DNA from: Sphingosinithalassobacter sp. CS137
GTDB taxonomy: Bacteria > Pseudomonadota > Alphaproteobacteria > Sphingomonadales > Sphingomonadaceae
Length of the DNA stretch: 64,000 nucleotides
Reading direction: 5' to 3'
Assembly: GCF_014334115.1 (NCBI RefSeq)
Contig: NZ_CP060494.1
Span: 1,642,501 to 1,706,500 of the forward strand
Every line of letters begins with the position of its first letter. The first letter of the stretch is position 1. A model generated the notes under the pieces. It did no database searches. It had not been told where the DNA came from and saw only the letters and a program-made list of their open reading frames with translations. Below are positions 8,183-19,883 of this stretch, piece by piece. The position numbers and the translations under genes are program-made.

Positions 8183-8853
8183 TGGTGTCTACTGCCGATT
8201 GCCTTGATGATGGCGGCGCCCAATTGCCGTGTGTTTCGCGGCCGGCCGGAGCCGTTCAGAAGATCGACGCCAAGCTGAGCGGCGAGTTCACGCAGCACAG
8301 GTTTGGCGACGTCGACCCGGTTGCCGTGGCGCAGTACGCCAATTGAGCCGCTTTCAAATTGTTGGACGGTGTACCCCCCAAAACTCTCGGCAGCTTCAAT
8401 GGACTGGGCGTCGAGCGGGCGGGTTGACTTCCGACGCGACGCGATCGGAAAATCGATCGAACCATTCGACAAGCGCCTCAGATGTCCATCGAAGTCTGCT
8501 CGACCGATGTCCAGTAATGTCTCGACCGATACACCCTCGTCGTCGTCAACATTTATCCGCAGGACCATTATGCGGTCAGCCAATTCTAATGTGTTCGTAT
8601 TGAACCGCGCCTGCACGCTCGTAGTAACGGTCTTCACGGAGATACGCTCTCCCTCGGCGCTCACGACATCATAGCCGCGCTGATTGGTGGTGGTCGCCAT
8701 TTGGCCGCGCGTTATCATCGCGGCATACAGCTCACCAATTCGCCCGGTGAGGTGGTTGAGTTCACCCGGAGCGACGCCCCATTCCAGCTCTTTCTCAAAC
8801 CAGCTTAACGCTTCGCCCAAAGACTGAATAATCTGAATTTGCGTAAGAGGCAT
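8179..8853 (-). CDS. putative PD-(D/E)XK nuclease-like protein inserted between infB and rbfA
   Basis: A 224-residue protein not assigned to a named family with confidence; it resembles DUF6998-type restriction-endonuclease-fold proteins. A helical N-terminus leads to [10 protein letters not shown] (Glu41), GYDV (Asp62) and ISVKT (Lys74). The Glu-Asp-xxK spacing is as in PD-(D/E)XK folds, but the second acidic residue is replaced. The C-terminal 50 residues form a small basic helical segment. Rows of 60 bases within the gene fall to about 48-55% G+C, well below its neighbours, which suggests acquisition. The stop overlaps the rbfA start (ATGA). A terminator-like hairpin separates it from infB. 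Confidence 0.6.
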
Positions 8854-8882
8854 GGCGAAGTGAATCCTGCTGTACGTGAAGA

Positions 8883-8909
8883 GCCCTCCGCCAACTACCG
8901 GCGGAGGGC
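8883..8909 (-). terminator. terminator-like hairpin after infB
   Basis: A perfect 10-bp inverted repeat, GCCCTCCGCC / GGCGGAGGGC with a 7-base loop, lies directly after the infB stop on the minus strand. Only a weak T-containing stretch (TCTTCAC) follows. It may attenuate transcription into the inserted gene and rbfA. Confidence 0.6.
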
Positions 8910-8915
8910 CTCTGC

Positions 8916-11564
8916 TTACAGCGTGCGTTCGCGCATCTCGACTTCGAACGTCTCCAGATAGTCGCCCGGCTTGATGTCGGTGAAGTTCTGGCTGAACGTC
9001 ACACCGCATTCCAGGCCCGCCCGCACTTCGGCGACATCATCCTTGAAGCGGCGCAGCGATGCGATCTCGCCCTGATAGATGATGACGTCGTCGCGCGTGA
9101 TGCGTGCCTTGAGCGCCTTGCGGATGACGCCCTCGGTGACGAGCAGACCCGCCGCCTTGCCGTGCTTGCCCGCCGAGAAGACTTCCTTGATCTCGGCGCG
9201 GCCGACCACCGTCTCGAAGGCCTCGGGGCCCAGCTCGCCGGCCATCCCCGCGCGGATGTCGTCGGTCAGGTCATAGATGACGTCGTAGTATTTCAGCGCC
9301 ACCTTGTTCCGCTCGGCGATCTCGCGTGCCTTGGCGTTGGCGCGCACGTTGAAGCCGATGATCGGCGCGCCGCTGGCCGCGGCCAGCGTCACGTCGCTCT
9401 CGGTGATGCCGCCGACGCCCGAGTGCAGGATCCGCACCCGGATCTCGTCGGTCGAGATCTTGTTGAGCGAGCCGATGATCGCCTCGACGGTGCCCTGGGT
9501 GTCGCCCTTGACCACCAGCGGATATTCGATCGCCTGCTTGTCCTTGAGCGCCGAGAACATGCTCTCGAGGCTCGCCGGCGCCTGCGTCGTGCGCTTCTGC
9601 TGGATGACGCCCTGGCGGTATTCGGCGACTTCGCGCGCACGCGCCTCGCTCTCCACGACCTGCAGCGGATCGCCCGCCATCGGCACCCCCGACAGGCCGA
9701 GCACTTCGACCGGCATCGCCGGACCGGCTTCCTTGACCTGGCGGCCCTTGTCATCGACCAGCGCGCGCACCTTGCCGCTTTCGGCGCCGACGACGAACAC
9801 GTCGCCCACCTTCAGCGTGCCGCGGCTGACGAGGATCGTCGCGACCGGGCCGCGGCCCTTGTCGAGCTTGGCCTCGACCACCGTTCCCTCGGCGTCGCGG
9901 GCGGGGTTCGCCCGCAGCTCGAGCAGCTCGGCCTGGAGCTGGATCTTGTCGATCAGATCGTCGAGCCCGGTCTTCTTGAGCGCCGACACCTCGACGTCCT
10001 GCGTCTCGCCGCCCATCGCCTCGACCTGGACGTCGTGCTCGAGCAGCCGCTCGCGGATGCGCTGCGGATTGGCCTCGGGCTTGTCGACCTTGTTGATCGC
10101 CACGATCATCGGCACGCCGGCCGCCTTGGTGTGATTGATCGCCTCGATCGTCTGCGGCATCAGCCCGTCGTCGGCGGCGACCACCAGCACGACGATGTCG
10201 GTCACGTTCGCGCCGCGCGCGCGCATGTCCGAAAACGCCTCGTGGCCCGGCGTGTCGAGGAAAGTGATCTTCGACTTGTCCTTCTGGGTCACCTGATAGG
10301 CGCCGATGTGCTGGGTGATGCCACCGGCCTCGCCCTGCACCACATCGGTGCCGCGCATCGCGTCGAGCAGGCTCGTCTTGCCGTGATCGACATGGCCCAT
10401 GATCGTGACCACCGGCGGCCGCGGCTGCAGCGCCTCCTCGGGATCCTCGGCGGCATCGAGCTGAAGGTCGATGTCGCTTTCCGACACGCGCCGGAAATTA
10501 TGGCCGAATTCGCCGACGAGCAGCTCGGCGGTGTCCTGGTCGATCGTCTGGTTGACGGTCACCGGCATGCCCATCTTGAACAGCGCCTTCACCAGGTCGG
10601 CGCCCTTCTCGGCCATGCGGTTGGCGAGTTCCTGCACGGTGATCGCGTCGGGCACCTGCACGTCGCGCACCTGCTTCTCGCGCGGCTGGCTCGAGCCGCT
10701 GCGATGCGCGCGCTTTTCCTTCTCGCGGGCGCGCTTGAGCGCTGCGAGGCTGCGCGCACGCGCGCCATCGCCGTCGCCCAGGGCGCGGTTGACGGTGAGC
10801 TTGCCCGACTGGCGGCGATCGTCGCCGCCCTTGCGATCGCGGCTCGGCTTGCTCGCCGGGGCCTCGGAACGCTTCGGCGCCGCCGGAGCACGCGCCGCGG
10901 CCGGCTCGGGCTTGGGTTCGGGGCGCGGGATTTCGGGCCGCTGGACCGGCGTGAACCGGCGCGGTGCGGGACGCGTGGGGTCGAGCTCCAGCGCGCGGTT
11001 CGCTTCCGCGGGGGCAGGAGTCGGCGCGGCAGGCGCAGGCTCGGGCACTTCGGGCTCCGGCGCACGCGCTTCCGGCTCGGCCCGTTCGGGCGCCTGCGCG
11101 GCGGCCTTGGCGGCCTCTTCCTCGGCCTTGCGGTTTTCCTCGGCGCGGCGGCGCTCCTCCTCGGAGGCCTCGGCCTTCTCGCGCTCCTCGCGACGGCGCG
11201 CTTCCTCGAGCGCGGCCATGCGCGCTTCCTCGGCCTCGCGCAGCAGCTTCGCCTGAAGCTCCTGGCGCGAAAGCAGGCTGTCGCCCGACGAACGCGGCGC
11301 AGGCGCGGGTGTCCGCGCCGCGGCCTTCTCCGGCTGCGGCGGCGCCTTGGCCTCCGGTTCGGGCGCCGGCGTCGGCGCCTGCTGCTGAGCCGCGCCTTCC
11401 TCGCCCGGACGGCCGAGAACACGCCGGCGCTTCACTTCCACGACGACGGTGTTCGAGCGGCCATGGCTGAAGCTCTGCTTCACCTTGCCCGTCTCCACCG
11501 TGCGCTTCAGTCCCAGCGGCGCGCGCGTGCCCAGTTTCGGCTTTTCCTTGTCCGTGTCGCTCAT
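8916..11564 (-). CDS. infB: translation initiation factor IF-2
   Basis: An 882-residue GTPase that brings initiator fMet-tRNA to the 30S subunit. The N-terminal third is a long low-complexity Ala/Pro/Glu/Arg region with a highly charged EEARRREER coiled-coil-like stretch. The GTPase domain follows: GHVDHGKTS (G1), DTPGHEAF (G3) and NKVDKP (G4). Domains II, III and IV make up the rest. The ATG at 11564 is preferred; a TTG at 11576, overlapping the ylxR stop as TTGA, would add four residues and has a closer AGGA. It is downstream of ylxR, as usual. Confidence 0.95.
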
Positions 11565-11572
11565 GCGTGTAC

Positions 11573-12274
11573 TCAAAATCCTTCGTTCGTCTCGGTCGTT
11601 CGCGTCGCAGGCGATCCCAACGGCGCACTGTCCTGCGATTTAGGTTCGCAAGGCGAATCTGCGCGATCGGGTCCGATAAAGTGCAGCCAGCGGGCAAGCA
11701 AATCGCGCACCCGCTTTGCCGCCTGGGCGTCGGTCAGGCCGGCATGTACCACATTTTCGCGGCCGAGGGCCAAGGACAATATGGTACGATCGACCGGCAA
11801 TGTTAAGCCCTTGAGGCCGGAGCCTTCGCGGTCGCTGCCCACCCGCCATGCCTGGGCGAGCTTGGCCGCGCCGTCCGCGCTCGCGTCCGCGGCATGGAGC
11901 AGCAGCGCGAGCTTGCCTTGCCGCGCCGCCTTGTCGATCCGCTCGCCCCCGGTCACCAGCGCGCCAGAGCGCGCTTCGAGCCCCAGCCGCTCGAGCGTCG
12001 CGCGCCGCAGCGCCGCGTCGATGCGGTCGGCCAGATCGTCGGGCAGGCGGAACTCGCCGGTCTTGAACGCGCGGGCCAGCGCGCCGCGAAGGCGTCCCTT
12101 GGCGGTCGCCGCCTCGAGCTCTTCCCGGCTCACGCCGATCCAAGCACCGCGCCCGGGCGCCTTGGCATGGACGTCGGGCAGCACGTCGCCCTCGGGCGAG
12201 AGCGCGAGACGGATCAGCCCGTCGCGCGGCGCTTCCTCGCGCGAGAGGATGCAGGTGCGCATGGGATCGCTCAT
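11573..12274 (-). CDS. ylxR: YlxR (DUF448) RNA-binding protein with C-terminal L7Ae-like domain
   Basis: A 233-residue protein encoded between nusA and infB, the standard place for ylxR. The N-terminal domain has the hallmark RTCILSREEAPRDGLIRLAL, followed by PGRGAWIGVSREEL and a basic patch (residues about 1-90). The second half, around KAARQGKLALLLHAADAS, resembles the L7Ae/ribosomal-protein fold fused to YlxR in many alphaproteobacteria. It is presumed to bind RNA; its precise role is unsettled. The stop almost abuts infB, indicating co-translation. Confidence 0.9.
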   Translation of the reverse strand: MSDPMRTCILSREEAPRDGLIRLALSPEGDVLPDVHAKAPGRGAWIGVSREELEAATAKGRLRGALARAFKTGEFRLPDDLADRIDAALRRATLERLGLEARSGALVTGGERIDKAARQGKLALLLHAADASADGAAKLAQAWRVGSDREGSGLKGLTLPVDRTILSLALGRENVVHAGLTDAQAAKRVRDLLARWLHFIGPDRADSPCEPKSQDSAPLGSPATRTTETNEGF

Positions 12275-12394
12275 CGCGCGCCTCCCGCCGGCATGCCGCG
12301 GGGCAGGTCGTGCGCCGCAACCGGGCGCACGCCAGGCACCGGCCCCGGCGCGAGGCCGGGGCGGCGATCAACGCTGTCGGTTAGCGCAAGCCAA

Positions 12395-14050
12395 TCATTG
12401 TTCGGATTCCGCAACAGCGTCCTCCCCGCCCGTGTCCGGCTCCAGCTCGACGCTCGAGTCGGTCAGCGGCGCTTCCTCGTCGGCGAACCAGTGCGCGCGC
12501 GCGGCCATGATGATCTCGTTGCCCTGCTCGTCGGTCAGTCCATACTCGCCGAGCACCCCGCCCTTGTCCTCGCTGCGGTTCGACGCGGCCTGATCGCTGC
12601 GCCGGCGCGGCTCGGCGCGCTTCTTCTGGACCAGTTCGTCGGTGGCGAGATCGGCCAGGTCGTCGAGCGTCTTGATGCCCGCCTTGCCCAACGTCACCAG
12701 CATCGCCTCGGTGAGATAGGGGATGGTCGTCAGATCGTCCGACACGCCCAGCGCGCGGCGTTCCTCGCGGTTCGCCTCCTCGCGGCGTTCGAGCGCTTCC
12801 TGCGCACGGCTCTGCAGCTCCTGCGCCAGATCGTCGTCGAAGCCTTCGATCATCGCCAGCTCGTCGAGCTCGACATAGGCGACTTCCTCCAGCGCGCCGA
12901 AGCCTTCGGCGACCAACAGCTGCGCCAGCGTCTCGTCGACGTCGAGCTCGTTCTGGAACATCTCGGAATTCTGGACGAATTCCTTCTGGCGCTTCTCGCT
13001 CGCGTCCTGCTCGGTCAGGATGTCGATCGCCTTGGCGGTCAGCTGGCTGGCGAGGCGCACATTCTGGCCGCGGCGGCCGATCGCCAGCGAAAGCTGGTCG
13101 TCGGGCACCACCACTTCGATGCGGTCCTCTTCCTCGTCGATCACCACGCGGCTGACGTTCGCCGGCTGAAGCGCGTTCACCACGAAGGTCGCGGTGTCGG
13201 GCGACCAGGGGATGATGTCGATCTTCTCGCCCTGCATCTCCTGCACCACCGCCTGCACGCGGCTGCCCTTCATGCCGACGCAGGCACCGACCGGATCGAT
13301 GCTGCTGTCGTGCGAAATCACGCCGATCTTGGCGCGGCTGCCCGGATCGCGCGCGGCCGCCTTGATCTCGATGATGCCGTCGTAGATCTCGGGCACTTCC
13401 TGCGCGAACAGCTTCTTCATGAAGTCGGGGTGCGCGCGGCTCAGGAAAATCTGCGGCCCGCGGTTCTCGCGGCGCACGTTGAGGATGATCGAGCGGACGC
13501 GGTCGCCCACGCGCACCACTTCGCGCGGGATCTGCGCGTCGCGGCGGATCACGCCCTCGGCGCGGCCCAGATCGACCACGACATGGCCGAACTCGACTCG
13601 CTTCACCACGCCGGTGATGATCTCGCCGACGCGGTCCTTGAACTCTTCATACTGGCGCTCGCGCTCGGCATCGCGGACCTTCTGGAAGATGATCTGCTTG
13701 GAAGCCTGCGCCTGGATGCGGCCGAATTCGATCGGGGGCAGCGGATCGACGATATAGTCGCCCACCTTGGCGTCCTTCTGGAGCTTCTGCGCGCCCTTGA
13801 GGTCGACCTGCTTGAAATAATCGTCGACCACTTCGACCACTTCGACCACGCGCCACAGGCGCAGGTCGCCGGTGTTGGGGTCGAGCTTGGCGCGGATGTC
13901 GTTCTCGACGCCATAGCGGTTCTTGGCGGCGCGCTGGATCGCGTCCTCCATCGCCTCGATGACGATGGCCTTGTCGATCAGCTTCTCACGCGCCACCGCA
14001 TCGGCGATGGCGATCAGCTCGGCCTTGTTGGCGGAAACGGCAGTGGCCAT
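12395..14050 (-). CDS. nusA: transcription termination/antitermination factor NusA
   Basis: A 551-residue RNA polymerase-associated factor. The order of domains is standard: N-terminal polymerase-binding domain (about 1-130), S1 domain (about 135-200), then KH1 and KH2 with SIDPVGACVGMKGSRV and LAIGRRGQNVRLASQL. A long acidic C-terminal region with a helix-hairpin-helix-type repeat (TKAGI-like TLGKAGIKTLDDLA) follows, and the last 40 residues are strongly acidic. It starts five bases after the rimP stop, so the two form an operon. About 120 bases separate it from ylxR. Confidence 0.97.
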   Translation of the reverse strand: MATAVSANKAELIAIADAVAREKLIDKAIVIEAMEDAIQRAAKNRYGVENDIRAKLDPNTGDLRLWRVVEVVEVVDDYFKQVDLKGAQKLQKDAKVGDYIVDPLPPIEFGRIQAQASKQIIFQKVRDAERERQYEEFKDRVGEIITGVVKRVEFGHVVVDLGRAEGVIRRDAQIPREVVRVGDRVRSIILNVRRENRGPQIFLSRAHPDFMKKLFAQEVPEIYDGIIEIKAAARDPGSRAKIGVISHDSSIDPVGACVGMKGSRVQAVVQEMQGEKIDIIPWSPDTATFVVNALQPANVSRVVIDEEEDRIEVVVPDDQLSLAIGRRGQNVRLASQLTAKAIDILTEQDASEKRQKEFVQNSEMFQNELDVDETLAQLLVAEGFGALEEVAYVELDELAMIEGFDDDLAQELQSRAQEALERREEANREERRALGVSDDLTTIPYLTEAMLVTLGKAGIKTLDDLADLATDELVQKKRAEPRRRSDQAASNRSEDKGGVLGEYGLTDEQGNEIIMAARAHWFADEEAPLTDSSVELEPDTGGEDAVAESEQ

Positions 14051-16179: not shown

Positions 16180-16554
16180 TCAGCGCTGGAGCAAATAGTT
16201 CATCCGCGCCGCGGCGATCGGCTTGTCGGGATCGTCCTGCCAGGCCGTCGCCTCGACATTGGCGACGCGGGTGCCCAGCCGAGTGACCACGCCCTTTGCA
16301 CGGGTCGGTTTGTCGCGGCCGCCGCGCATGAAGTCGACCGTCACGTTGATCGGCTTCACTTGCGCCTCTTCCTCGCCGAGCGCCTGCTGAAGCGCCCCGA
16401 TCGCCGCCATTTCCAGCAATCCGCCGATCGCGCCGCCGTGCAGGAAGCCCGGCCGCCCGAGCACGTCCTCGGCGAACGGCATGACGAAGGTCGGCGCCTC
16501 GGCGCCCGGTTCCTCGGTCAGGCCCAACAGCGCGGCGTAGGGGGGAAGCGTCAT
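16180..16554 (-). CDS. PaaI-family hotdog thioesterase (second of a pair)
   Basis: A 124-residue protein with the hotdog-fold signature FLHGGAIGGLLEMAAIGAL (active-site HGG region), followed by the INVTVDFMRGG strand and a final beta strand. Such enzymes hydrolyse acyl-CoA thioesters; the substrate is unknown. The gene starts one base past the stop of another thioesterase of the same family, so the two are co-transcribed and may form a heteromer. The sequences are clearly different from each other, so this is not a recent duplication. Confidence 0.85.
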   Translation of the reverse strand: MTLPPYAALLGLTEEPGAEAPTFVMPFAEDVLGRPGFLHGGAIGGLLEMAAIGALQQALGEEEAQVKPINVTVDFMRGGRDKPTRAKGVVTRLGTRVANVEATAWQDDPDKPIAAARMNYLLQR

Positions 16555-16555
16555 C

Positions 16556-17002
16556 TCAGATCCCGGTGGTCATGAAGGTGCCGGCGACATGGGCGAGCGG
16601 ATCGTCGGGGTCGCCGTCATGCGCCTGACCGCGAACGAAGCCGATGTTGCGAGTCACGCGATAGCATTCGCCGCGCCCGATCACCGTCCGGCCGGGGGTC
16701 GCCGGGCGCAGATAGTCGATCCGCAGGTCGAGCGTCGCATGCGGCAGAAAGGCGCCGCGGCGCAGCCAAACCGCGAAGCTGGTCGCCATGTCCATCAGCG
16801 CGATCACCGGCCCCGAAGCGACCACTCCGGTCTCCGGCTGGCCGATCTGGTCCGGATCATAGGGCAGTTCCAGTTCGGCCCAGTCGGCGCCATGGGCGCG
16901 ATAGCGAATGCCGAGCCGACCGCCATGGCCGCCGAACCCGCTGCGCGCCAGGCGCTCGGGGTCGAAGGAAGGCATCGGGCTGGGCGGGGCATTGTTGGTC
17001 AT
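16556..17002 (-). CDS. PaaI-family hotdog thioesterase (first of a pair)
   Basis: A 148-residue hotdog-fold protein. The core helix segment GVVASGPVIALMDMATSFAV and the strand ATLDLRIDYLRPATPG match PaaI-like thioesterases, although the HGG motif is replaced by SGP, so catalysis may differ from its partner. The start at 17002 (MTNNAPPSP) is chosen because upstream residues are low-complexity; a Met nine residues later is also possible. It shares a transcription unit with the thioesterase at 16180-16554 and is divergent from the peptide cassette. Confidence 0.82.
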   Translation of the reverse strand: MTNNAPPSPMPSFDPERLARSGFGGHGGRLGIRYRAHGADWAELELPYDPDQIGQPETGVVASGPVIALMDMATSFAVWLRRGAFLPHATLDLRIDYLRPATPGRTVIGRGECYRVTRNIGFVRGQAHDGDPDDPLAHVAGTFMTTGI

Positions 17003-17143
17003 CGCCTCCGCCGTAGCGCGGCCCCGGGCGCCGCGCAAACCGAAGGACGGGCGCCAAGATTACATCGATTTAACTAAGCGCCGGCGCTGGTCGGGCCTAG
17101 CCTGCCGCCGCGCCGGCATCCACGCCGCGCCAAAGGGGGAACG

Positions 17144-17296
17144 ATGGCACCGGTACAGATCGGGATCGGCGAGATCGCCGAGCTTGGAACGCAGGTCGGC
17201 ATGTACGGCAGCGTCCGCGCCGGCGAGGTCATGATGGACGATGTGTTCGAGATGATCGTCGCGATCGCCAATCTGATTTACGAGCTCTACCCCTAG
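17144..17296 (+). CDS. 50-residue acidic peptide, candidate precursor of a modified peptide
   Basis: A short frame with a strong ribosome binding site (AAAGGGGGA, four bases before the ATG). It ends three bases before the next gene. The peptide has 7 acidic and 1 basic residues, no Cys, a Gly-rich N-terminal half (IGIGEIAELG) and a hydrophobic/acidic C-terminal half ending IYELYP. The upstream 140 bases hold one distinctly AT-rich patch (about 17057-17077) that could be a promoter. It resembles no family I can name. Its size, position first in a tight operon, and the cupin-like enzyme downstream suggest a substrate peptide, but that is inference. Confidence 0.6.
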   Translation: MAPVQIGIGEIAELGTQVGMYGSVRAGEVMMDDVFEMIVAIANLIYELYP

Positions 17297-17299
17297 GCC

Positions 17300-18259
17300 A
17301 TGCCCGGCATGTCTAGGGCAGTGCGCGAGGCGATCGCCGCTGCCCGCGAGCCTTCGCTCGACGCCGGACGCCGCTGGCGCGGCGGCCCGGAGATGCAGGC
17401 GCTCGCCGCGGCCTTCGCCGACTGCCCGCTCGATCGCGCCGAACCCGCCGCCGACCGGGCCGAGACGCTGTTCGCCGACATCGGCTGGATCGAAGCGCTA
17501 CTCGCACCGCTTGTCGGAGCGCTCGCCGGGGATCCGTTCTTTGAGCCGCCGTTCAAGGCGAGCCGCGACTCAGTACGCACCGGCATCGTCCTGTTCGACT
17601 GCCCCGTCGCCTCGATCAGCGCCAGCGTGTTGCGGGCCGATGCCCTGGCAGCAGCCCCGGCACCCGGGACAGCCGTGGTCTCCGGCCGCATCGTCGTGAC
17701 GCACTATTTCCGGGCGGGCGGCGCGGTGCTCCGCCGATGGGAGGCCGAGCCGCTGGCGCCGGATTTCACTGCCGCGACTGCGCCGCCGTGCCGTCCGCTG
17801 CCGCCGACTCGTCTCCTCGACGGCGACGTGATCCGCACCGACGGGCGAACACGGGCCCAGCTTGTGACTGGTGCCACCCGTGATCTGGCGACGCTCGTCG
17901 CCACCATCCGCGCCGGCGCCGCGCCGCTGATCCGCGAATATGACGTCGAAAGCGGCGCACTGGTTCGGGTCGCCAGCGCCGATGACGGCGCCTCGCGAAC
18001 CGAAATGCTGCTGACCTTCCTTCGCAATGCCCGCCGCACCGACGCCGGTCCCCAGTTCGACGCGGCGACGCACGACCCGGCCTTTCACGCCCGCTGGGCG
18101 GCGATGCGAGAATGGCTCGCGCTCGACGCAGCCGCCGCGCTGCCCCGGCTGGAGACGATGGCGGCGCAGGACCCGAATTCGGAAGTTCGGGCTGCCGCCG
18201 CAGCCACGCTTCGGAATGTACGGCTCCGCGTCGCGGAGGCGCGCCGATGCCGCGCCTGA
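17300..18259 (+). CDS. uncharacterised protein with beta-rich core and C-terminal helical repeat
   Basis: A 319-residue protein with no signal peptide. Residues 1-75 are helical. Residues about 85-150 are beta-rich, with TGIVLFDCPVASISASVL and SGRIVVTHYF (His135), resembling a cupin-like sheet that has lost most ligands. The C-terminal 50 residues (PRLETMAAQDPNSEVRAAAA) look like a HEAT-type repeat. It follows the 50-residue peptide by three bases and overlaps the next gene by 13 bases, so all are translated from one message. I do not recognise the family. It may be a distant relative of its downstream neighbour, which has the same order of parts. Confidence 0.65.
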   Translation: MPGMSRAVREAIAAAREPSLDAGRRWRGGPEMQALAAAFADCPLDRAEPAADRAETLFADIGWIEALLAPLVGALAGDPFFEPPFKASRDSVRTGIVLFDCPVASISASVLRADALAAAPAPGTAVVSGRIVVTHYFRAGGAVLRRWEAEPLAPDFTAATAPPCRPLPPTRLLDGDVIRTDGRTRAQLVTGATRDLATLVATIRAGAAPLIREYDVESGALVRVASADDGASRTEMLLTFLRNARRTDAGPQFDAATHDPAFHARWAAMREWLALDAAAALPRLETMAAQDPNSEVRAAAAATLRNVRLRVAEARRCRA

Positions 18260-19218
18260 TCGATCCCGGACGAGGCGGCGCGATCGGACTCAATGATCTG
18301 ATCGAGGCGCTCGAGACGACTCCCTTCGACGTCCGGGACGAGGATAGCTTTGCCGGCCTGGGTCCGCTGCTTGCGCGGCTTGGCCGCAACCGCGACTTCC
18401 TCGCCGACCTCGCGATCGCGGAGCTCAAGACGCGCTGCGAGGCGCAGTCGGCGTCGTCGGGCTATGGACCGCAGGTCTTCCTGCTGCGCCCGCCGAACGG
18501 TCGATACGTGCTTCGCGCAAATTTCTGGCCCGCCCGCGACGAGCCGGTCACGCGCGCCAGCGGCACGGCCGCCTTCTTCTACGATCTGCCGCACGACCAT
18601 AATTTTTCGTTCCTCACCTACGGCTATTTCGGGCCGGGCTATTGGAGCGACTATTACGAATATGATCCCGATCTCCGCGTCGGACTCCCGGGGGAGCACG
18701 CCGGGCTGCGGCTCATCGAACGCGCCCGGCTCGAACCGGAGCGGCTGATGCTCTACCGCCGCAGCCGCGACATCCATGTCCAGCTTCCGCCCGAAGCCTT
18801 CTCGGTATCGCTCAACATCCTTGGGTCGGACCCGGCGCAACCCTGGATCGACCAATACCGCTTCGACATCAGTAGCGGCACTTTCGCCGAAGCGCTCACC
18901 TGCACCGCCGCCGAGGCACTTCTGACGCTGGCGGCGCAGTTCGGTGGCGAAGGATCGGAGCGTGCGCGCGATTTCGCACGACGCCACCCCTGCGATCGAA
19001 TGCGCCTCACGGCCGTGACGGCGCTCGCCGCCGCCGCGCCTGATCCGGTTGCCGCGCACGCCATATTCGTCACGGCGGCCGATTCATCGAGTGGGCTGGT
19101 CGCGGGGCATGCCCGCCAGCGGCTGGCAGCGATGGAAGCGCTTCAGAGGCGTTCGGCTCCGGAACGGACGCAACCGCCATTGGGGTCGGGCGGAGAGGCG
19201 CTAGCAGGGACGGCGTGA
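18247..19218 (+). CDS. cupin-like protein with a candidate three-His metal site
   Basis: A 323-residue protein starting at the ATG at 18247. After a helical N-terminus, a beta-rich domain (about 75-210) contains PHDHNF (His116, His118), an aromatic run GYFGPGYWSDYYEYD, and RDIHVQLPPE (His177). The HxH plus a His about 60 residues later is the pattern of cysteine-dioxygenase-like cupins with a three-His iron site. The last 90 residues are helical, HEAT-like. It overlaps both neighbours (13 bases upstream; GTGA with the regulator downstream). It could be an oxygenase acting on the small peptide; this is inferred from fold features and context only. Confidence 0.65.
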   Translation: MPRLIDPGRGGAIGLNDLIEALETTPFDVRDEDSFAGLGPLLARLGRNRDFLADLAIAELKTRCEAQSASSGYGPQVFLLRPPNGRYVLRANFWPARDEPVTRASGTAAFFYDLPHDHNFSFLTYGYFGPGYWSDYYEYDPDLRVGLPGEHAGLRLIERARLEPERLMLYRRSRDIHVQLPPEAFSVSLNILGSDPAQPWIDQYRFDISSGTFAEALTCTAAEALLTLAAQFGGEGSERARDFARRHPCDRMRLTAVTALAAAAPDPVAAHAIFVTAADSSSGLVAGHARQRLAAMEALQRRSAPERTQPPLGSGGEALAGTA

Positions 19219-19883
19219 TCGAAATCCTCCAGTGCGATGTCGATGTCCCAAAACTCGGTGCGGCATTGCAGCGCCGCGGCATCTGCGCGACGACGCTGCC
19301 GCGGCATCGGCTCGACGCTAAGCTCGACCAAGGCGCGCCCGCCGCCGTTCTGCTGGGTTCGCGCGGCGAAAATCTCGGCGCGGAGATAGCGACGGTTCGT
19401 CATCGATGGGGTGGGCCACTGCTGATCGCGCTGAAGCCCGGCACCATGGCTTGTCCGGCCGAAGCGCTGGATGCCGGCGCAGACGATGTTGTCGGCCTTC
19501 CCGCCGCGATCTGCGAGATCGCCGCCCGGGTCGCGGCACGGCTACGTCCGCGACCCGAATTGCCGCTACAGATCGGCGAACTGCGTATCGAGCGCGCCGA
19601 ACGGCGCGTGGCGCGGGCAGGCAAGCCCGTGCCGCTGCTGCCGCGCGAATACGCGCTCCTGCTACACTTGGCGCATCGGCCGGGCGCCTGCGTGAGCCGC
19701 AGCGAACTGCTCGGAGCCGTATGGGGACTGGATTTCGACCCCGGCACGAATGTAGTCGAGGTTCACGTCTCGCGCCTGCGGGCGAAGCTCGATCGCGGAT
19801 TCTCGCGGCCCATGCTGCTGACCGAGCGGAGGCGCGGCTATCGGCTTGACCCCATCGTTGCCGCCGCGCCCCCGCCGCGATAG
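19215..19883 (+). CDS. OmpR/PhoB-type winged-helix regulator with degenerate receiver
   Basis: A 222-residue response-regulator-like protein. The GTG start overlaps the stop of the cupin-like gene (GTGA). The C-terminal winged helix (about 115-215) is intact: LLPREYALLLHLAHRPG, SRSELLGAVWG, VVEVHVSRLRAKL and a TERRRGYRL wing. The N-terminal receiver keeps the size and alternating pattern but lacks the phospho-acceptor: the third strand reads AAVLLGSRG (Gly48 where Asp is expected), and the KP motif near the end is LP. It is therefore probably controlled by ligand, protein contact or abundance rather than phosphorylation. No histidine kinase is adjacent. It likely regulates the cassette it belongs to. 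Confidence 0.8.
   Translation: MIEILQCDVDVPKLGAALQRRGICATTLPRHRLDAKLDQGAPAAVLLGSRGENLGAEIATVRHRWGGPLLIALKPGTMACPAEALDAGADDVVGLPAAICEIAARVAARLRPRPELPLQIGELRIERAERRVARAGKPVPLLPREYALLLHLAHRPGACVSRSELLGAVWGLDFDPGTNVVEVHVSRLRAKLDRGFSRPMLLTERRRGYRLDPIVAAAPPPR

Follow-up and report, generated by a model that had tools for sequence, protein, structure and literature searches.

Four co-directional genes at positions 17144-19883 of a 64,000-nucleotide stretch of Sphingosinithalassobacter sp. CS137 (contig NZ_CP060494.1, positions 1,642,501 to 1,706,500; the whole stretch is referred to as the window, and belongs to a genome of 3.19 Mb in a single contig) form a cassette that we read, with moderate confidence, as a peptide modification system. 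It would follow the logic of the ribosomally synthesized and post-translationally modified peptides (RiPPs), with an enzyme of the thiol-dioxygenase fold and its dead paralogue acting on the tail of a small peptide. The analysis itself shows the order of the genes, their conservation and selection, the predicted folds, the invariant histidines, the paralogy and the neighbouring genes; iron, oxygen chemistry, complex formation, the modified residue, processing and role are inferences. Open frames and their translations define the following features:

17132..17139, + strand: Shine-Dalgarno-like site AAAGGGGG, preceding the peptide gene (read from the sequence)
17144..17296, + strand: peptide gene, 50 residues, acidic and Cys-free, with an N-terminal motif (IGEIAELGTQVG) and a hydrophobic tail
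17300..18259, + strand: partner, 319 residues, an apparently degenerate cupin with a predicted thiol-dioxygenase-like fold and a helical (HEAT-like) tail, lacking conserved His
18247..18259, + strand: 13-base overlap of the partner and cupin-like genes
18247..19218, + strand: cupin-like protein, 323 residues, enzyme of the thiol-dioxygenase fold (from its model), with three invariant His and a helical tail
18592..18600, + strand: codons of His116-Asp117-His118, where His116 and His118 are predicted metal ligands
18775..18777, + strand: codon of His177, the predicted third metal ligand
19215..19883, + strand: OmpR-type DNA-binding protein, 222 residues, with no Pfam receiver match, a clade-limited addition

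The peptide and partner genes are separated by 3 bases, the next junction is the 13-base overlap, and the cupin-like and OmpR-type genes share a GTGA overlap (19215-19218), a layout that an earlier note on this DNA had described correctly. The same holds for its description of the first product as an acidic, Cys-free peptide (net charge -6) behind a Shine-Dalgarno-like site, of the last as an OmpR-type DNA-binding protein (Trans_reg_C, E 1.6e-21), and of the first three products as belonging to no nameable family. With an E limit of 1, no model of Pfam or NCBIfam matched the peptide or the cupin-like protein, and the partner, which has no accepted model in these databases, gave a HEAT_2 match below the cut-off (E 6.8e-4). 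Scanning for promoters and terminators returned nothing above chance. The arrangement itself goes beyond chance, because the gene order recurs in relatives, three histidines are invariant, and the 13-base overlap is common, being found in 75 of the 97 measurable loci (out of 100, with some genomes counted twice).

Judging from its predicted structure (predicted local distance difference test, pLDDT, 93.4), the cupin-like protein would be an oxygenase that uses Fe(II) bound at a three-His site, both the iron and the oxygen chemistry forming part of this prediction. All 50 of the best PDB matches listed for the model are thiol dioxygenases (49 by title, 3eqe being the other), and the top-scoring folds are small-molecule enzymes such as mercaptosuccinate and 3-mercaptopropionate dioxygenase; these matches, like those of the partner, were obtained with VIA-align 2. 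His116, His118 and His177 are invariant in 46 of 46 aligned rows, and the same is true of a second, broader set of 15 rows, which has five rows in common with the first and reaches down to 21% identity. As for the features of the thiol dioxygenase superfamily, the model exhibits a cupin fold of that type and the invariant residues provide a three-His site; a thiol substrate would be missing in the window's clade if the peptide is the substrate, because that peptide is Cys-free. At the level of sequence profiles, PF05995 (CDO_I) was not matched in Pfam even with an E limit of 1, the alignment of the cupin-like family with four CDO_I proteins by hhalign reached a probability of 0.1, and searches against solved structures yielded chance-level matches alone. 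The name "transposase", borne by several of the 120 homologues listed and, over two homologue searches, by the database records P0004, P0022, P0023, P0026, P0122 and others, was rejected, as there is no Pfam or NCBIfam domain match and the model is thiol-dioxygenase-like instead.

The earlier note had described the partner as a protein with a beta-rich core and a HEAT-like tail, next to a cupin-like protein with three placed His residues. The cupin-like protein with its three invariant His and the HEAT-like tail of the partner have stood, but the two proteins are homologous, since hhalign aligns the partner with the cupin family over 258 columns, and a separate HEAT family was rejected on this basis. 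The partner model (pLDDT 95.7) also matches the thiol-dioxygenase-like fold, with close runners-up, and none of the columns in an alignment of 42 rows reaches 40% His. On these comparisons, the partner appears to be a degenerate, non-catalytic-looking paralogue of the enzyme, so that the pair would consist of an active and a degenerate copy.

A homologue search with the 50-residue peptide as query returned one identical sequence from one candidate. From the loci of relatives, 103 peptides were collected, 97 of them distinct. Their median length is 50 residues and their median charge -5, with 83 of the 97 being net negative. The pattern [ILVF][PA]x[ILM] is present within the first 28 residues of 86 peptides, and the most hydrophobic stretch falls in the second half of 95. 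The consensus of the N-terminal half approximates I-D-x-x-x-[LI]-[PA]-x-L-x-T-x-x-G, and the motif is common to several genera. The peptide is under purifying selection: the ratio of nonsynonymous to synonymous substitution rates (dN/dS) in three groups was 0.35 (8 sequences, 28 pairs, with one sequence, L036, trimmed to a late internal ATG), 0.20 (18 sequences, 134 of 153 pairs usable) and 0.33 (7 sequences, 21 pairs), compared with 0.15, 0.19 and 0.37 for the cupin-like gene in the same groups and 0.29 for the partner in one group. In all three, the N-terminal part is under tighter constraint than the tail (127 of 153 pairs usable for this part in the second group, 20 of 21 in the third). 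A conserved N-terminal motif followed by a faster-evolving hydrophobic tail would fit the layout of a RiPP-type precursor, for which the earlier note had proposed to look in the form of a conserved leader and a variable core.

Cysteine occurs in 24 of the 97 peptides, and in 17 of them Gly-Gly is followed by Cys within three residues. Peptides of the latter type are found in Sphingosinicella, Alteromonas halophila and Lysobacter, and the peptide of Alteromonas stellipolaris, outside the 97, has Gly-Ala-Ala-Cys at this stretch. The presence of Cys in the peptide was placed as a label on a tree of 67 enzymes, comprising that of the window and 66 of 71 named loci (L052, L063, L076 and L093 are omitted because no curated peptide was available, and L096 because its enzyme is short, while L101 is scored as Cys despite having no Gly-Gly junction). 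The label requires 2 changes, against 14.6 in shuffles, and the window enzyme lies within a no-Cys clade of 20 rows with a support of 100/100. The label therefore tracks the enzyme tree, which shows joint inheritance and is not evidence of interaction. As a separate observation, Lysobacter selenitireducens (L100) holds two tandem peptide genes (8565-8717 and 8770-8928) ahead of a single partner-enzyme pair.

The peptide gene is kept with the pair in relatives. The earlier note had asked whether it is always the first gene, and a small frame precedes the partner in all 29 loci L002-L030, where it was chosen by eye among the listed frames, and in 68 of the 69 testable loci among the 71 named ones (L063 and L093 stop too early on their contigs), which gives 97 of 98 testable loci for two sets that overlap in some genomes. 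In six of the former loci, the peptide lies inside a longer open frame and an internal ATG was taken as its start. Listed frames had to carry a Shine-Dalgarno-like site, and its presence in relatives is no independent evidence because the selection demanded it. Among the 68, the partner frame is disrupted near its end in L032 (9134-10954) and L091 (9000-10010), by either a sequencing error or a broken gene; that of L032 then continues into the cupin frame. A partner-cupin fusion in L032, suggested by a single 606-codon frame, was rejected: the partner end is shifted, unrelated sequence, and its relative L033 has the usual overlap.

More divergent loci show a looser picture. A small frame also stands before the partner in the five loci L118-L122, and those of L118 and L119 show weak similarity; two candidate frames occur in L123, and the candidates of L133 and L135 have no profile match. 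The sole candidate of L132 (8916-9095) sits behind the enzyme, carries a Gly-Gly-Pro-Leu-Cys stretch, ends in AVGGPLCVGVFVVLMLVPM and resembles the Gly-Gly..Cys peptides (profile E 0.018), so that the peptide may be located behind the enzyme pair in this locus. With an E limit of 0.5, the peptide profile recovers 95 of 112 loci, which is not an independent test because the profile was built from those peptides. The 17 misses comprise ten loci whose curated peptide belongs to an open frame 164-277 residues long (the search took frames of up to 160), two contig ends, and L052, L118, L133, L134 and L135.

In some relatives, genes for export or for RiPP maturation accompany the cassette. ABC transporter genes adjoin it in three of them. 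In Alteromonas stellipolaris (L123), genes for an adaptor (TIGR01730), an ATPase and a MacB-type permease come, in this order, before the small peptide frames, the partner and the cupin, and are matched on the far side by an ABC ATPase followed by an ABC-2 permease; the partner and cupin genes again overlap by 13 bases. An ABC ATPase and an ABC-2 permease adjoin the cassette of Alteromonas halophila (L099), and an ATPase that of Lysobacter (L100), where the permease frame tried matched nothing; MacB-like genes lie near both, as judged by reading the translations alone. In two Lysobacteraceae-type genomes, remote enzyme-partner pairs share their stretch with peptide maturation dehydrogenases (TIGR04511). 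L133 has two of these, at the next-gene position; L135 has one, and also an NHLP-related precursor (TIGR04509) about 7 kb off, its RiPP genes lying 3 to 8 kb from the pair. In L133, a frame of 63 residues with an internal repeat (STLFIFAARK ... STAFIFAAQR; 9002-9193) stands before the partner-enzyme pair beside these SagB-related dehydrogenases. Past the cupin gene, L054 and L058 (about 10900-13000) encode a winged-helix-like protein (recognised by eye), two more small peptides bearing LPxLDxEVG-type motifs and one more partner-like protein, which gives the impression of a second cassette behind the first. On the other hand, a Pfam scan recognised no exporter among the window's near neighbours; its genome has no C39 peptidase match, and two MacB_PCD matches far from the window.

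Two loci weigh against a peptide modification system. In L052 (about 9000-9050), a tail remnant alone remains ahead of the partner and the front part of the peptide is gone, the upstream DNA reading as another open frame through a deletion, an insertion or an assembly join; and no clear peptide was found in the divergent L134 by frames or profile search. The RiPP-like logic of peptide, metal enzyme and partner, as proposed in the earlier note, draws support from co-occurrence, selection, the thiol-dioxygenase-like model and the RiPP and ABC genes near some relatives. The note had held that enzymes without a peptide frame, or a frame free of purifying selection, would refute a precursor; the frame is almost always kept and its dN/dS is 0.20-0.35, with L052 and L134 as exceptions.

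If modification occurs at all, as we infer, the 50-residue product would be a precursor in which the N-terminal half acts as recognition segment and the hydrophobic C-terminal part is modified. The dead paralogue would most likely bind the recognition segment and present the tail to the active subunit, forming a heteromer, and the three-His Fe(II) enzyme would oxidise the tail. The product is probably cleaved near the Gly-Gly (or Gly-Ala) junction in Alteromonas and Lysobacter and exported via the neighbouring ABC systems, whereas in the window's lineage it may be retained by the cell or its membrane, or leave through a distant exporter, because no exporter is recognised beside the cassette and no C39 is detectable in the genome. 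Since the window peptide is Cys-free, Cys oxidation cannot be its reaction, and inspection suggests Asp, Glu and Tyr close to the tail as candidates for modification in this branch. We also regard it as possible, without leaning towards it, that the cassette makes a new class of natural peptide product or of cofactor derived from a peptide: the enzyme, together with its dead paralogue, would oxidise Cys in the Gly-Gly..Cys branch, and would have been repurposed for a non-thiol residue of the Cys-free tail in the Sphingomonas and Novosphingobium branches. The sphingomonad form, which is common on chromosomes and has no recognised local exporter, would then yield an endogenous product and not a bacteriocin.

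An unlikely alternative is that cupin and partner form a dioxygenase for a small-molecule thiol (or other substrate), with the peptide as a structural or regulatory subunit. The nature of the best folds, the lack of Cys in the window peptide and the frequency of the enzyme in the order (97 of 296 genomes sampled), resembling that of an ordinary metabolic function, fit such a role. However, it accounts poorly for a motif conserved while the tail evolves faster, for tandem and extra peptides, for the Gly-Gly..Cys junctions, and for the presence, in some relatives, of RiPP and ABC transporter genes nearby.

Even less probable is a hydrophobic toxin or bacteriocin-like effector, with the pair as its immunity or neutralising complex. 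Hydrophobic tails, small size and the ABC genes next to three relatives would agree with it, but the three-His site, invariant across the diverse set, points to catalysis, and the window's three products have no PADLOC match. A defence system was rejected: of the five proteins scanned with PADLOC, the partner of a relative alone gave a match, and a weak one (E 0.0069). The least probable reading takes the short frame, directly ahead of the partner with its 3-base gap, as a translational leader controlling downstream genes, its product having no role of its own, which is at odds with the amino-acid constraint and with a motif common to several genera.

The regulator, which the earlier note took for a dedicated part of the cassette, is not a general member but a clade-limited addition. 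Homologues follow the cupin gene in 23 of the 71 named loci (tblastn), 19 of which, L031-L049, are of the Sphingomonas-Stakelama type; a less strict count by motif puts the number at 29 of 100 loci. Like OmpR/PhoB response regulators, the window protein has the C-terminal winged-helix domain, but it differs from them in that Pfam finds no receiver domain with an E limit of 1 and in its poorly conserved N-terminal half, and no conserved Asp was seen by eye among homologues in the part of the alignment printed.

A Pfam scan of the near neighbours identified a crotonase downstream of the cassette and two divergent genes upstream:

16556..17002, - strand: hotdog-fold thioesterase 1 (4HBT, E 3.4e-10, scanned minus its first codon)
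16180..16554, - strand: hotdog-fold thioesterase 2 (4HBT, E 2.5e-8)

These are kept in 41 and 40 of the 71 named loci, respectively, and the crotonase in 14, with some contigs being too short. The thioesterase pair is retained beside the cassette in Sphingomonas and Novosphingobium, and these genes may have stayed here through common descent of the region and not for a functional reason.

Among known systems, the closest by predicted fold are the thiol dioxygenases (cysteine, 3-mercaptopropionate, mercaptosuccinate, ergothioneine and cysteamine dioxygenases, and plant cysteine oxidases). In contrast to them, the cassette enzyme has neither a Pfam match nor a profile match to the four CDO_I proteins, and possesses an extra helical tail, a degenerate paralogue and a peptide gene encoded alongside, the window peptide being Cys-free. 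MbnB/MbnC and TglH/TglI are RiPP pairings of an iron enzyme of the DUF692/MNIO type with a partner. As in these, a short precursor, an oxidative metal enzyme and a second protein share one operon; unlike them, the cassette exhibits a different predicted fold, a partner paralogous to the enzyme and, in the window's clade, a Cys-free precursor. SagB-related dehydrogenase loci with NHLP-related precursors (TIGR04511, TIGR04509) share a stretch with the remote pairs of L133 and L135, but no such gene is recognised beside the window cassette. None of the models of Pfam, NCBIfam or PADLOC gives the window's enzyme a name, and nothing on such a system appeared among the papers listed by searches of open-licence full texts (subscription papers lay outside the search). 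Thus, while RiPP-like logic is known, the enzyme fold and the dead-twin arrangement seem undescribed as far as this literature and the family models reach.

The cupin-like protein has at least 3,251 homologues, counted with an E limit of 0.001 over 8,000 scored candidates. Besides its frequency in the order, it was found in 15 of 398 genomes sampled from the phylum, and 13 of these 15 belong to the same family as the window. A search seeded with the Alteromonas protein matched 1,358 of 2,076 candidates, Pseudoalteromonas, Lysobacter, Luteimonas and Stenotrophomonas being among the matches listed, and one of 72,556 plasmid records matches (over 65% of the query), from Alteromonas stellipolaris. 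Public data contain at least 3,251 related protein clusters, for which this analysis matched no family model and of which some records bear the unsupported name "transposase". If the proposed peptide modification system holds true, it would add a new fold to the RiPP tailoring enzymes, together with a pseudoenzyme partner of clear ancestry. The pairing of one enzyme family with Cys-bearing and Cys-free peptides would then represent a natural experiment, in which the action of a thiol-dioxygenase fold on a non-thiol substrate would become directly testable, largely in sphingomonads.
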